From contig NZ_CP166850.1 of assembly GCF_041346945.1 (NCBI RefSeq), positions 6,494,501-6,558,500 on the forward strand: DNA of 64,000 nucleotides. The letters are read 5' to 3'. Made by a program: the position numbers and the translations under genes. Of the stretch, positions 13,784 through 19,110 are shown in pieces. Within the stretch, counting starts at the first letter, position 1. The number at the start of each line of letters is the position of its first letter. The stretch comes from Amycolatopsis sp. cg9. Lineage in GTDB: Bacteria > Actinomycetota > Actinomycetes > Mycobacteriales > Pseudonocardiaceae. The notes under the pieces are model-generated. The model was not told the DNA's origin. It was given only the letters and a program-made list of their open reading frames with translations, and did not search any database.

Positions 13784-15001
13784 ATGGCCGGGACGTGGTC
13801 GGCGTTCGCGGTGCGGGGGTTCCGGGAGGTGTGGCTCGCCGGTCTGCTTTCGGTGGCCGGGGACCAGCTGGCCCGCGTCGCGTTGTCCATTCTCGTGTTC
13901 CAGCGCACGGGTTCGGCGGCGCTGAGCGCGGCCACGTACGCGCTTTCGATGCTGCCCGCGCTCGTTTCGGGGGCGCTGCTGTCGTGGCTGGCCGACCGGT
14001 TCCCGCGGCGCCGCGTCATGGTGGTGTGCGACGTCGCCCGTGCGGCGCTCGTCGCGGTGATGGCCGTGCCCGCGACGCCGCTGCCGCTGATGGCCGCGCT
14101 GCTGGTGCTCGTCCAGCTCGCCGAAGCGCCGTTCTCCGCGGCGCAGGGCGCGGTCCTGCCGGAGCTGCTCGGCACGCGGTACGAAGCGGGCCAGGCGGTG
14201 CAGCAGGTCACCACGCAGCTGTGCCTGGTGCTGGGGTTCGCGGCGGCCGCGTTCGTGGTGACCGGGGTCGGCGCGCACACCGCGCTGGCGATCGACGCCG
14301 CCACCTTCGCCGTTTCGGCGCTGCTGATCCGCGCGGGGCTGGACAGCCACCCGCCACCGGGCGGCCGCGCCCGGCACGGGACGTCGTGGTGGCGGCAGGT
14401 CGCCGGCGGCGCGGTCGCCGTCCGCCGCGACCGGACGCTCTCGACACTGGTGTGGCTGGGCTGGCTGGCGTTGTTCACCGTCGTCCCCGAAGGGCTCGCG
14501 GTGCCGTTCGCCCGGGAGATCGGCGCGGGCGGCGGCTGGATCGGGGTGCTGCTCGCCGCGGAACCGGCGGGCGCGGTCGCGGGCGCGCTGCTGCTGCGGC
14601 TGGTCGCGCGGCGGGTGCGGGTGCGCGCGCTGGGCGTGCTCGCGGTCGGGACGTCGGCGCCGCTGGTGGCCTACTGGGCCCAGCCCGCGCTGGGCACGGC
14701 GCTGGCGCTGCTGTTCTTGTCCGGGGTGTGCTCGGCGTACCAGGTCACGGCGGGGGCGACGTTCGTCCAGCTCTCCCCGCCGCCGCTGCGTGGCCGGGCC
14801 CTCGGCTTCGCGCGGACCGGGATGATCGCCGGGCAGGGCCTCGGCATCGTCCTCGGCGGCGTGCTCGCACAACTGGCCGGCGCGGCGACGGCGATCGCCG
14901 TGGCGGGCACCGCGGGAGCGCTGGTCGCGCTCGCCGCGGCCGCCGCGTGGTCGCGCCGGCGGCCGGACGCGGTCTCGGCCGCGCTGCCGGCCGAAGCCTG
15001 A
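13784..15001 (+). CDS. MFS exporter (MFS_3, EntS/macrolide-efflux-like)
   Basis: The 405-residue protein has 12 predicted membrane helices and the MFS_3 style N-terminus FREVWLAGLLSVAGDQLARVALSILVFQRTGSA, with DRFPRRRVMVVCD in loop 2-3. Relatives export siderophores or drugs. A GGGGTGGGGG purine stretch precedes the ATG. It stands alone, pointing away from the aromatic cluster and toward the array of MSDKGW mini-genes on the opposite strand, whose last copy ends seven bases after its stop. Export of the processed peptide is a possible link but rests only on adjacency. Confidence 0.82.
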   Translation: MAGTWSAFAVRGFREVWLAGLLSVAGDQLARVALSILVFQRTGSAALSAATYALSMLPALVSGALLSWLADRFPRRRVMVVCDVARAALVAVMAVPATPLPLMAALLVLVQLAEAPFSAAQGAVLPELLGTRYEAGQAVQQVTTQLCLVLGFAAAAFVVTGVGAHTALAIDAATFAVSALLIRAGLDSHPPPGGRARHGTSWWRQVAGGAVAVRRDRTLSTLVWLGWLALFTVVPEGLAVPFAREIGAGGGWIGVLLAAEPAGAVAGALLLRLVARRVRVRALGVLAVGTSAPLVAYWAQPALGTALALLFLSGVCSAYQVTAGATFVQLSPPPLRGRALGFARTGMIAGQGLGIVLGGVLAQLAGAATAIAVAGTAGALVALAAAAAWSRRRPDAVSAALPAEA

Positions 15002-15008
15002 CCCGGGT

Positions 15009-15029
15009 TCACCAGCCTTTGTCGCTCAT
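15009..15029 (-). CDS. Mini-gene encoding hexapeptide MSDKGW, copy 4 (distal)
   Basis: Seven codons on the minus strand spell Met-Ser-Asp-Lys-Gly-Trp-stop (TGA). An AAGGAG Shine-Dalgarno lies six bases upstream of the ATG. Lys is AAA here. The block from ATG to TGA is identical to the other three copies apart from the synonymous third base of the Lys codon. The gene is too short for standard gene finders. Function unknown. Confidence 0.65.
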   Translation of the reverse strand: MSDKGW

Positions 15030-15077
15030 CGCGTGCTCCTTTTCGGTGGCGGGGGACGGTCGGGCGGTCGTGGGGGT

Positions 15078-15098
15078 TCACCAGCCCTTGTCGCTCAT
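15078..15098 (-). CDS. Mini-gene encoding hexapeptide MSDKGW, copy 3
   Basis: It encodes the same six residues and TGA stop as the neighbouring copies, with Lys as AAG. GAGGAG lies six bases upstream of the ATG, an ideal ribosome-binding site. The preceding copy starts 66 bp upstream and the next follows 69 bp downstream; the spacers between copies have diverged while the codons have not. Confidence 0.65.
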   Translation of the reverse strand: MSDKGW

Positions 15099-15143
15099 CG
15101 CTTGCTCCTCGTCGGTGGTGGTGGGTGGGTGCGATCGTGGGGC

Positions 15144-15164
15144 TCACCAGCCTTTGTCGCTCAT
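15144..15164 (-). CDS. Mini-gene encoding hexapeptide MSDKGW, copy 2
   Basis: Same hexapeptide, Lys as AAA. GAGGAG is six bases upstream of the ATG. The conserved unit extends over the ribosome-binding site and the GCACGCG before the start, so each copy looks like an independent translation unit on one transcript. Confidence 0.65.
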   Translation of the reverse strand: MSDKGW

Positions 15165-15214
15165 CGCGTGCTCCTCTTCTCGATGCCCGGGGGAACGGGG
15201 GCGGACGTCCGGGT

Positions 15215-15235
15215 TCACCAGCCCTTGTCGCTCAT
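15215..15235 (-). CDS. Mini-gene encoding hexapeptide MSDKGW, copy 1 (promoter-proximal)
   Basis: Same hexapeptide, Lys as AAG. The ribosome-binding site is the least typical of the four (GGAAAGGCGAGCCG before ATG). It is the first copy after the 163-bp gap shared with the divergent GGDEF gene, where the promoter of the array must lie; a TATCC-like -10 is possible there but not convincing. Confidence 0.6.
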   Translation of the reverse strand: MSDKGW

Positions 15236-15321
15236 CGGCTCGCCTTTCCGTGCGGTTCGTCCGGTCTCGGATACCCGGAATGGTCCCAGCCGCCCGGTCG
15301 GGTCGCGCCGTGGGGAAACGG

Positions 15322-15350
15322 CTGACACCCGACCGCAACGCGACTACCCT
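15322..15350 (+). promoter_or_regulatory. Candidate promoter of the GGDEF gene
   Basis: CTGACA (15322-15327) and TACCCT (15345-15350) are separated by 17 bp and lie 49 bp before the ATG of the diguanylate cyclase gene, which has its own GGGGAGG ribosome site. A sigma-70-type match only; no mapped start. Confidence 0.4.
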
Positions 15351-15398
15351 GGGCGAGCAGGTGTTCACCGGCGCGGAGCAGGGCGGGGAGGCGCTGCG

Positions 15399-16676
15399 AT
15401 GAGCGGAGACACGAGCACTCCGGGGGATTGGGCTCCACCGCGGTGGAAGCTGTGGTCGTTGCCCGGGCGGGTGCGGTTCTTCGTACTGGCTGTCGATCTG
15501 GCGGCGCTGGCCGTCCTGGTGGTGGCGGCGCGGGCGGCGCCCTCGCCGCAGCAGTGGGCGACGGCCGGCTGGCTCGCCGCGGCCGCGTTGCCGCACCTGC
15601 ACGCCTCGCACCTGATCGAGCAGCGGCGTCGCGATCGTTCCGGCTCGCCGTACGTCGACCTCTGCAGCGTCTGGATCTTCGCCGGGGTGCTCGCCCTGCC
15701 GCTGGTGCTGGAGCTGGCGCTGGTCGCGGTGATCTACGGCCACCGCTGGCTGCTGGTCAACCGCTTCGACCCGGTCCGCCCGCCGCACCGCACGGTGTTC
15801 ACCGCCGCCACGCTCGCCTTGGCGGCGGCCGCCGCGGCCGCCGTGCTGCGGCTGACCGGCGCGCACGAGCACCTCCTCCACGTCGGCGACGGCGCCCGGC
15901 CCGGCTGGGCGGACCTCGCCGCCGTGCTCGCCGCGGGCGCCGTGCAGTGGACGGTCAACACCGCGCTCGTCGGCGCGGTCATCGCCTGGACGGTCACCGT
16001 CGAGCACCCCCGCCGGCTGCTGGGCAGCGCCTCGGACAACCTCCTGGAGGTCAGCCAGCTGGCGCTCGGCGTCTTCGTCGCGCTCGCCCTGCTGTGGTGG
16101 CCGCCCGCGGCGCTGCTGATGATCATCCCGACGTTCGCGCTGCACCAGTGCGTCCAGCTCGACCAGCTCAAGCTGGCCGCGCGCACCGACCAGCGCACCG
16201 GGCTGCTCAACGCGATCGCGTGGCACCAGCAGGCCGAGCGGGCGCTCGAGCGCGCCCGCACCACCGGCGGCCGGACCGGGGTGCTGATGATCGACCTCGA
16301 CTGGTTCAAGCGCATCAACGACACCCACGGCCACCCGGTCGGCGACGACGTCCTCGCCGAGGTGGCCACCGTGCTCGCGAAGACCGTCCGGCGCGGGGAC
16401 ACGGTCGGGCGGTACGGCGGGGAAGAGTTCGCGGTCCTGCTGCCCGACGTCGACGAAGCCGAGGTCCGGGCGGTCGCCGAGCGGATCCGCGTCCGGATCC
16501 GGGCGCTGCGCATCACCGCGCCCACCGGCGAACCGGTCGCGCTGTCGGCGACCATCGGCGCGGCCCTGCACCCGGCGGTGGCCGAAGCGGGCCTGGACGG
16601 GATCATCCGCGCGGCCGACGAAGCCCTGTACGCGGGCAAGAAAGCGGGCCGGGACCGGGTGGCGCTCGCGCTCTAA
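15399..16676 (+). CDS. Membrane-bound diguanylate cyclase (GGDEF)
   Basis: The 425-residue protein has an N-terminal membrane part with about six or seven helices (residues about 25-250) and a cytoplasmic GGDEF domain (about 260-420). The active-site loop reads RYGGEEFAV, an accepted GGEEF variant, and the RRGD five residues before it forms the RxxD inhibitory site for product feedback. DLDWFKRINDTHGHPVGDDVL is the usual metal- and substrate-binding region. It should make cyclic di-GMP from two GTP. No EAL domain is present. It converges with the LacI gene, the two ends overlapping by a few bases. Confidence 0.93.
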   Translation: MSGDTSTPGDWAPPRWKLWSLPGRVRFFVLAVDLAALAVLVVAARAAPSPQQWATAGWLAAAALPHLHASHLIEQRRRDRSGSPYVDLCSVWIFAGVLALPLVLELALVAVIYGHRWLLVNRFDPVRPPHRTVFTAATLALAAAAAAAVLRLTGAHEHLLHVGDGARPGWADLAAVLAAGAVQWTVNTALVGAVIAWTVTVEHPRRLLGSASDNLLEVSQLALGVFVALALLWWPPAALLMIIPTFALHQCVQLDQLKLAARTDQRTGLLNAIAWHQQAERALERARTTGGRTGVLMIDLDWFKRINDTHGHPVGDDVLAEVATVLAKTVRRGDTVGRYGGEEFAVLLPDVDEAEVRAVAERIRVRIRALRITAPTGEPVALSATIGAALHPAVAEAGLDGIIRAADEALYAGKKAGRDRVALAL

Positions 16677-18815: not shown

Positions 18816-18941
18816 TCACTGGCAGGCTTCGCAGTCCGGGTCGTCGATCCGGCAGGCGGCGCCGTCGGTGAGCTCGAAGTCGAAGTCGTCCAGCGCGGGC
18901 ACGGCCGGCGCGGTGGCTTCTTCCGGGGTGGTGGTGGACAT
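18816..18941 (-). CDS. 41-residue peptide, RiPP-precursor-like
   Basis: The start is the ATG at 18939-18941, preceded by GAGGGAG at a good distance. The peptide has a Thr/Glu/Pro/Ala-rich N-terminal half, an acidic leader-like LDDFDFELTDG, and a short Cys-containing tail, ACRIDDPDCEACQ, with three Cys and a CxxC near the end. The layout recalls leader-core precursors, and FDFE is reminiscent of the FxLD motif in FxLD-type lanthipeptides, although the tail lacks Ser/Thr. No lanthipeptide, lasso or radical SAM enzyme is in the window. It could equally be a small metal- or redox-binding protein. The name is a hypothesis. Confidence 0.5.
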   Translation of the reverse strand: MSTTTPEEATAPAVPALDDFDFELTDGAACRIDDPDCEACQ

Positions 18942-19110
18942 GGCGCTCCCTCGGGTCGAACGGGTTCTCTCCGGGTGTAGCGCCGAAGATCGCCGGGCAT
19001 TCCGTGACCCGCGCCACAGTCGACATATCGGCAGCCCAGGGTGGCGCGACCGCACCACGTCGTCAGCGGACGGGCCCGGTCTTCCGCCCCATGGGGCGCA
19101 TCGGCGGAGC

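Follow-up and report, generated by a model that had tools for sequence, protein, structure and literature searches.

The stretch analyzed here, hereafter the window, comprises 64,000 nucleotides of Amycolatopsis sp. cg9 (contig NZ_CP166850.1, positions 6,494,501 to 6,558,500). Between a gene for a major facilitator superfamily (MFS) transporter and a gene for a membrane diguanylate cyclase it harbors a tandem array of four minigenes, each encoding only the hexapeptide MSDKGW. The locus, in window coordinates, is laid out as follows.

13784..15001, plus strand: MFS transporter gene (MFS_1), convergent to the array; putative exporter
15009..15029, minus strand: minigene unit 4, MSDKGW, Lys AAA, ribosome site AAGGAG
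15078..15098, minus strand: minigene unit 3, MSDKGW, Lys AAG, ribosome site GAGGAG
15144..15164, minus strand: minigene unit 2, MSDKGW, Lys AAA, ribosome site GAGGAG
15215..15235, minus strand: minigene unit 1 (upstream-most), MSDKGW, Lys AAG, weaker ribosome site GGAAAGG
15236..15305, minus strand: array leader with block GGCTGGGACCATT (15270-15305, read by eye)
15399..16676, plus strand: membrane diguanylate cyclase gene (425 aa), divergent from the array; membrane domain followed by a GGDEF domain with GGEEF

The sequence ATG-AGC-GAC-AAR-GGC-TGG-TGA occurs on the minus strand in four mismatch-free copies with start-to-start distances of 69, 66 and 71 bases, and AAA/AAG is the only coding variation among them. 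GGAG ends 6 bases 5' of the ATG in three units, and GGAAAGG ends 7 bases 5' of it in unit 1. When up to 3 mismatches were allowed, the window still gave 4 matches, compared with 0 in 100 dinucleotide shuffles, and a degenerate unit pattern searched across the entire genome gave 4 matches, every one of them in this array. As background, 5 Shine-Dalgarno-preceded frames of 5-9 codons lie outside the array (window total, both strands summed). The MSDKGW frames are exact and far above chance expectation, and the first-pass annotation, which had reported a four-fold tandem of them at 66-71 bp with three strong ribosome sites and a weaker one, was accurate. The block GGCTGGGACCATT ahead of the first unit is also kept, by eye, in distant relatives of this locus (e.g. 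L070 and L074, of the MxDKGW clade described below), and the leader with its block presumably represents a promoter or regulator site; a sigma-70 and terminator scan of 14900-15450 found no match.

The stop codons of the last minigene and of the MFS gene are only 7 bases apart, and the array points into the MFS gene. Such an arrangement would suit a cis-acting device that works like a leader peptide: by being translated, the short frames would control antisense transcription running into the MFS gene or into the promoter of the divergent cyclase. The C-rich spacers and the folding of the array RNA, which is less stable than that of shuffled sequences (z 1.57), can be read in the same way. On the other hand, there is no gene downstream of the array on its own strand, the next gene being the convergent MFS gene, and further points against such a device emerged from the relatives.

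The earlier claim that the peptide is under selection was borne out across genomes. Among adjacent units compared without a peptide filter, the proportion of synonymous differences (pS) was 0.234 and that of nonsynonymous differences (pN) 0.0187, a ratio of 0.08 (129 pairs from 34 loci, with the ribosome-site filter applied and 37 pairs excluded because of their length or distance), and 7 serine codons were swapped between AGY and TCN. Adjacent units were 94.7% identical, in contrast to 50.8% for the spacers that follow them. With the peptide filter, pN/pS was 0.039 in 173 pairs. The units that passed the filter on peptide and ribosome site numbered 320, from 108 loci, which agrees with the earlier view of a multi-copy family of minimal genes; TGA was the stop in 311 and ATG the start in 247. 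A ribosome-site four-mer ended 5-10 bases 5' of the start in 300 of the 320 and was absent in 13, a ribosome-like site being itself a filter criterion. These figures bear on the idea that a conserved DNA or RNA motif, such as a protein binding site or a structured RNA, merely mimics short genes. Its best argument comes from the MxDKGW clade, in which GAC, GGC and TGG are invariant and AAA/AAG is nearly the sole silent change. Between clades, however, the nucleotides vary and it is the start codon, ribosome site, length and stop that persist; pN/pS lies far under 1, serine crosses codon boxes, an Rfam scan of the window gave 0 matches and RNA structure is not in excess. We consider a motif of this kind scarcely credible. 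Judging from these comparisons, the conserved entity is the peptide, and the frames and ribosome sites appear to be under peptide-level selection.

In a set of 80 genomes of the genus, MxDKGW units were found in 18 (16 by the first pattern, plus G033 and G063 with MRDKGW units). These are exactly the genomes that carry an MFS orthologue (at least 76% identity; next best MFS match 58%), which upholds the previously proposed link to the adjacent MFS protein. Across the 18 loci there are 50 units, with 1-6 at each locus, encoding MSDKGW (31), MRDKGW (11), MTDKGW (4), MHDKGW (2), MADKGW (1) and MSDRGW (1), with AAA as the lysine codon in 26 and AAG in 23; one unit in each of two genomes starts with GTG, and one unit stops with TAA. 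As a side observation, AAA stands at codon 4 in about half of the clade units, a far higher share than in neighboring genes: nine genes of the window contain 54 AAG codons and 7 AAA codons. Frame-breaking changes in relatives would have spoken against the peptide, and all 18 genomes with the MFS orthologue have intact units. The sole broken remnant, a unit fragment, was found in G008 (L054), where the MFS gene is nearly all lost and the cyclase gene kept. In G039 (L219) both array and MFS gene are lost and the cyclase gene is again kept, and the cyclases of these two genomes are possible orphan receptors. A scan of a wider collection for a ribosome site followed by MxDKGW returned 11 records, 9 of them from Amycolatopsis; single matches in a Bathyarchaeota and a Chloroflexi metagenome-assembled genome look like chance. 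A loose pattern matched 33 of 390 genomes of the family, and the 15 beyond the array genomes, with one match each, were taken as chance because the reversed control pattern matches 11 genomes.

The partner found most consistently was one that the first-pass annotation had missed: it had rightly picked out the MFS gene and passed over the divergent GGDEF gene. Cyclase relatives were collected with A1, a membrane-domain profile built from cyclases with known minigenes. At E 1e-15 it found relatives in 375 of 386 genomes of the family, and at E 1e-40 in 20 of 296 genomes of the class, 2 from the own family and 18 from a second family (f21); a cyclase search of plasmid records at E 1e-40 found no match. 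For one f21 cyclase, the closest named homologue comes from Jiangella alba, at 87% identity, and after this match a placement of f21 in Micromonosporaceae was dropped. Upstream regions of up to 900 bases were inspected for 82 cyclases, namely 50 chosen for genus spread among the A1 matches listed, 26 places from the E 1e-40 search (taken from 40 listed; 25 of f21 and 1 of the own family, with L253 and L254 left out and a few places yielding no locus) and 6 paralogues of the own genome. Ribosome-site-led frames of 5-9 codons numbered 200 on the divergent strand and 1 on the other, against a shuffle expectation of 12.3, where two starts of one frame count as 2 and a few matches are clearly not of the family. 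Arginine was the second residue in 173 of the 200, a repeated peptide was seen in 33 loci, and at least one such frame was present at 57 of the 82 loci, a share that is probably overestimated for the whole cyclase family because A1 was built from minigene-bearing cyclases. By a family-aimed rule, with L255 and L215 counted by hand, a peptide gene was found in 51 of the 54 loci that have a convergent MFS gene, in 12 of the 28 that lack one and, on the opposite strand, in 0 of 82.

The cleanest evidence for the pairing of peptide gene and cyclase, and for the MFS gene being optional, is the reverse test, because its starting point was the peptide alone. A pattern for MRNRES/T matched 32 of the 80 genus genomes and its reversed control 0; 27 genomes had 2-11 matches and 5 had one. 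Among these five, four matches end in TGG and were set aside as false, the fifth being G071. A pattern for MCGRDN matched 24 of the 80, again with 0 for the reversed control. Of 24 loci retrieved in this way, a divergent cyclase (E at most 1e-50) was present at 9 of 9 MRNRES arrays and 12 of 12 MCGRDN loci, and an MFS relative at none of the former and at 11 of the latter, the twelfth lying at a contig end; the 3 false MRNRES matches retrieved had neither a cyclase nor an MFS gene beside them. By gene neighborhood, the divergent diguanylate cyclase is the most constant apparent partner, and the MFS transporter is usual yet optional. Peptide type also followed cyclase distance (Mantel r 0.84, 0 of 5000 permutations), and the nearest neighbor shared the same core in 57 of 64 cases. 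Each cyclase type thus appears paired with a characteristic peptide, but since peptide and cyclase genes are linked, the correlation is no proof of co-evolution: it is compatible with private channels and equally expected from linkage.

The peptides themselves proved diverse, and minimal genes, single or arrayed, occur beside paralogues, in other genera of Pseudonocardiaceae and in f21. In the corresponding slot of distant MFS homologues of the genus we found mostly MRGQNW, and also MRDKIW with an in-frame double, MRGQNWTLRGQNW, MRKSQNW, MRDNNW types and MRNNTW doubles; among 50 MFS-led loci, L145 alone was without a minigene. Upstream of the 82 cyclases the peptides include MRDKIW, MREKIW, MRENTWRENTWK, MRGQTW, MRTNEIW, MRENNW and MSDNNW, and arrays of up to 14 units encode MRDNNW(TR), MRDTTWS, MRDNTWT, MRDNNWN, MRGNSWD, MRANSWD and MRDNKWSR. 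The C-terminal tryptophan and the lysine, singled out in the first-pass annotation, therefore hold for the MxDKGW clade and not for the family as a whole, in which MRNRES, MCGRDN and MRGKDQ have no tryptophan. In-frame repeats and one seven-core precursor occupy the minigene slot at some loci. The 39-residue frame of L215 contains four SEWH cores, and L218 has a 30-residue frame containing one tryptophan. By eye, L226 has 15-residue doubles, and in L216 and L217 arrays precede two cyclase genes in tandem; these three loci would add to those counted as having a peptide gene by the family-aimed rule. The in-frame repeats and the seven-core precursor fit peptide processing and speak against ribosome stalling at Trp-stop, which cannot be general in any case, as residues often follow the tryptophan. 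Together with copy numbers that range from 1 to 14, a peptide that varies between clades yet is constant inside each, and the many loci without an MFS gene, this leaves the cis-acting device very unlikely.

The proteins encoded on either side suggest how a peptide might act. The window cyclase matches Pfam GGDEF with 146 bits and the GG(E/D)EF motif is intact in 55 of 55 aligned cyclases, so that by its motif the protein is predicted to be an active diguanylate cyclase. Its helical membrane domain (aligned residues about 47-237) appears to resemble the S-components of energy-coupling factor (ECF) transporters, and the top 13 entries of a structural comparison were all ECF-transporter membrane components. 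Pfam scans of 10 members gave weak matches to MASE9 in 2 (best E 0.0044), a match to ECF_trnsprt in 1 (E 0.018) and none to 5TMR. The window MFS protein scored 90 bits with MFS_1 (cut-off 33.4) and 23.8 bits with MFS_3, under its cut-off of 27, which corrects the earlier typing as MFS_3. Exporter models of NCBIfam matched only far under their cut-offs, and the closest partial resemblance was to drug and siderophore exporters; the protein is presumably an exporter. An apparent MFS-GGDEF fusion (P0060, 652 residues) was left unused, because its MFS domain is incomplete and it could be an artefact of gene calling.

Whether the peptides leave the cell at all can be weighed against this background. 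They could be intracellular regulators that remain unexported, bind the cyclase or the transporter on its cytosolic side and tune its activity. The peptides lack a signal sequence, some loci have no MFS neighbor and the cyclase is the constant partner, all of which such regulators would accommodate. However, an exporter-type MFS gene is convergent at 54 of the 82 loci, the S-component-like fold suggests entry of a ligand from outside and repeated cores within one precursor suggest processing, and we regard intracellular action as rather improbable.

Another possibility, raised in the first-pass annotation, is that the minigenes are minimal precursors of ribosomally synthesized and post-translationally modified peptides (RiPPs), modified by an enzyme encoded elsewhere; the product would be exported by the MFS protein, and the cyclase would sense it or regulate its synthesis. 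The size class of the genes, their tandem copies, the multi-core precursor and the frequent MFS exporter all recall RiPP loci, and biarylitides show that precursor genes can be as small as 18 bp and, in some cases, unlinked to their enzyme (PMC13417212). Yet no modifying enzyme recurs in the neighborhoods inspected. The flanking genes vary by clade (thiolase-like, TetR-like, tandem cyclase and aromatic catabolism, partly by eye), and a Pfam scan of 8 genes at 8.0-20.1 kb of the window found no P450. Moreover, the residues between R and W are highly variable, some peptides have no aromatic residue and the testable hallmarks of biarylitides are absent. The RiPP reading therefore lacks support and seems unlikely to us. 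Two side observations touch on it: a candidate P450 frame was seen, by eye only, near an MRGQTW unit at L184 (G097), and a small frame on the minus strand of the window (18816-19058) ends in DGAACRIDDPDCEACQ, with a tail that by eye resembles a RiPP precursor.

The own genome harbors several systems of this type: 6 of the 8 cyclases scored are accompanied by a peptide gene, the peptide differing from locus to locus, and none was visible on reading at the other two loci (L257 and L259).

Window locus: MSDKGW, four copies
Second replicon (C2), 31.28-31.53 kb: MRDVNW, MRKDVNW and MRDVNWTTK
C1, 116393-116650: L255, precursor of 85 residues with seven PTDWT cores, between MFS and cyclase genes
C1, 4681.3-4681.6 kb: MRNRES, seven copies
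C1, 3866.3 kb: MCGRDN
C1, 2300.3 kb: MRGKDQ

The L255 precursor has five homologues (P0091-P0095), all hypothetical proteins, three of which are assigned by name to Amycolatopsis.

Taken as partners, the minigenes and the divergent cyclase suggest peptide signaling. The array would consist of minimal genes for a leaderless hexapeptide, here MSDKGW, which, modified or unmodified, would exit the cell through the MFS transporter, bind to its cognate cyclase at the membrane domain, either in the producing cell or in its neighbors, and thereby change the level of cyclic di-GMP (c-di-GMP). Tandem copies would raise the peptide dose, and paralogous loci within one genome would form parallel private channels. 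At the MRNRES loci, which have no MFS gene, export would take another route or be absent. We judge the chances of this scheme, from export by the MFS protein to an altered c-di-GMP level, to be evenly balanced. Its extension to both actinomycete families, with leaderless peptide genes of about 21-50 bp as private signals that are often MFS-exported and read by S-component-type cyclases in parallel channels, is put forward more tentatively, as somewhat likelier to fail than to hold.

Comparison with known systems brought out partial likenesses. Phr-like pheromones of Bacillota are cut from Sec-exported precursors, re-imported and act on cytosolic proteins. They share with the present peptides a short polar character, one peptide per partner protein and paralogous sets per genome, but here the gene encodes nothing beyond the peptide itself, with a membrane diguanylate cyclase as partner. 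The leader peptides of mef and erm lie upstream of efflux genes on the same strand; the likeness is a very short frame near an efflux-type gene, whereas the array is tandem, convergent to the transporter gene and without a same-strand target. Biarylitide precursor genes (bytA), found mainly in actinomycetes, likewise have few codons (18 bp), are missed by annotation and are sometimes multi-copy; the precursors they encode are pentapeptides with aromatic residues at positions 3 and 5, served by a cognate P450 (bytO), some pairs being unlinked (PMC13417212). MSDKGW, in contrast, has D and G at positions 3 and 5, the family peptides have at least six residues and the partner is a cyclase. Receptors of the 5TMR/S-component fold join an apparently similar membrane domain to an output domain, in some cases GGDEF, yet the portion of the report available to us names no adjoining peptide gene for them (PMC11109136). 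Neither a description of this peptide-gene family nor the string MRGQNW was found in the open subset of PubMed Central, outside which most subscription papers fall, so that a description elsewhere is possible. Neither in gene form nor in the pairing of a peptide with a cyclase does it correspond to any system that we can name; if the receptor model is right, autocrine peptide signaling would be the nearest kind.

The minigenes represent a class of genes too short for annotation and are linked to c-di-GMP, which controls development and antibiotic production in actinomycetes. For most membrane diguanylate cyclases we know of no sensed ligand; here a candidate is encoded beside the cyclase gene, so receptor-ligand pairing can be tested with cheap synthetic hexapeptides. 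Actinomycetes are known for gamma-butyrolactone signals (PMC4748050). The peptide genes may be a new route by which soil bacteria signal with peptides and, if true, this would give actinomycetes a gene-encoded peptide language and perhaps offer a handle on silent antibiotic pathways.
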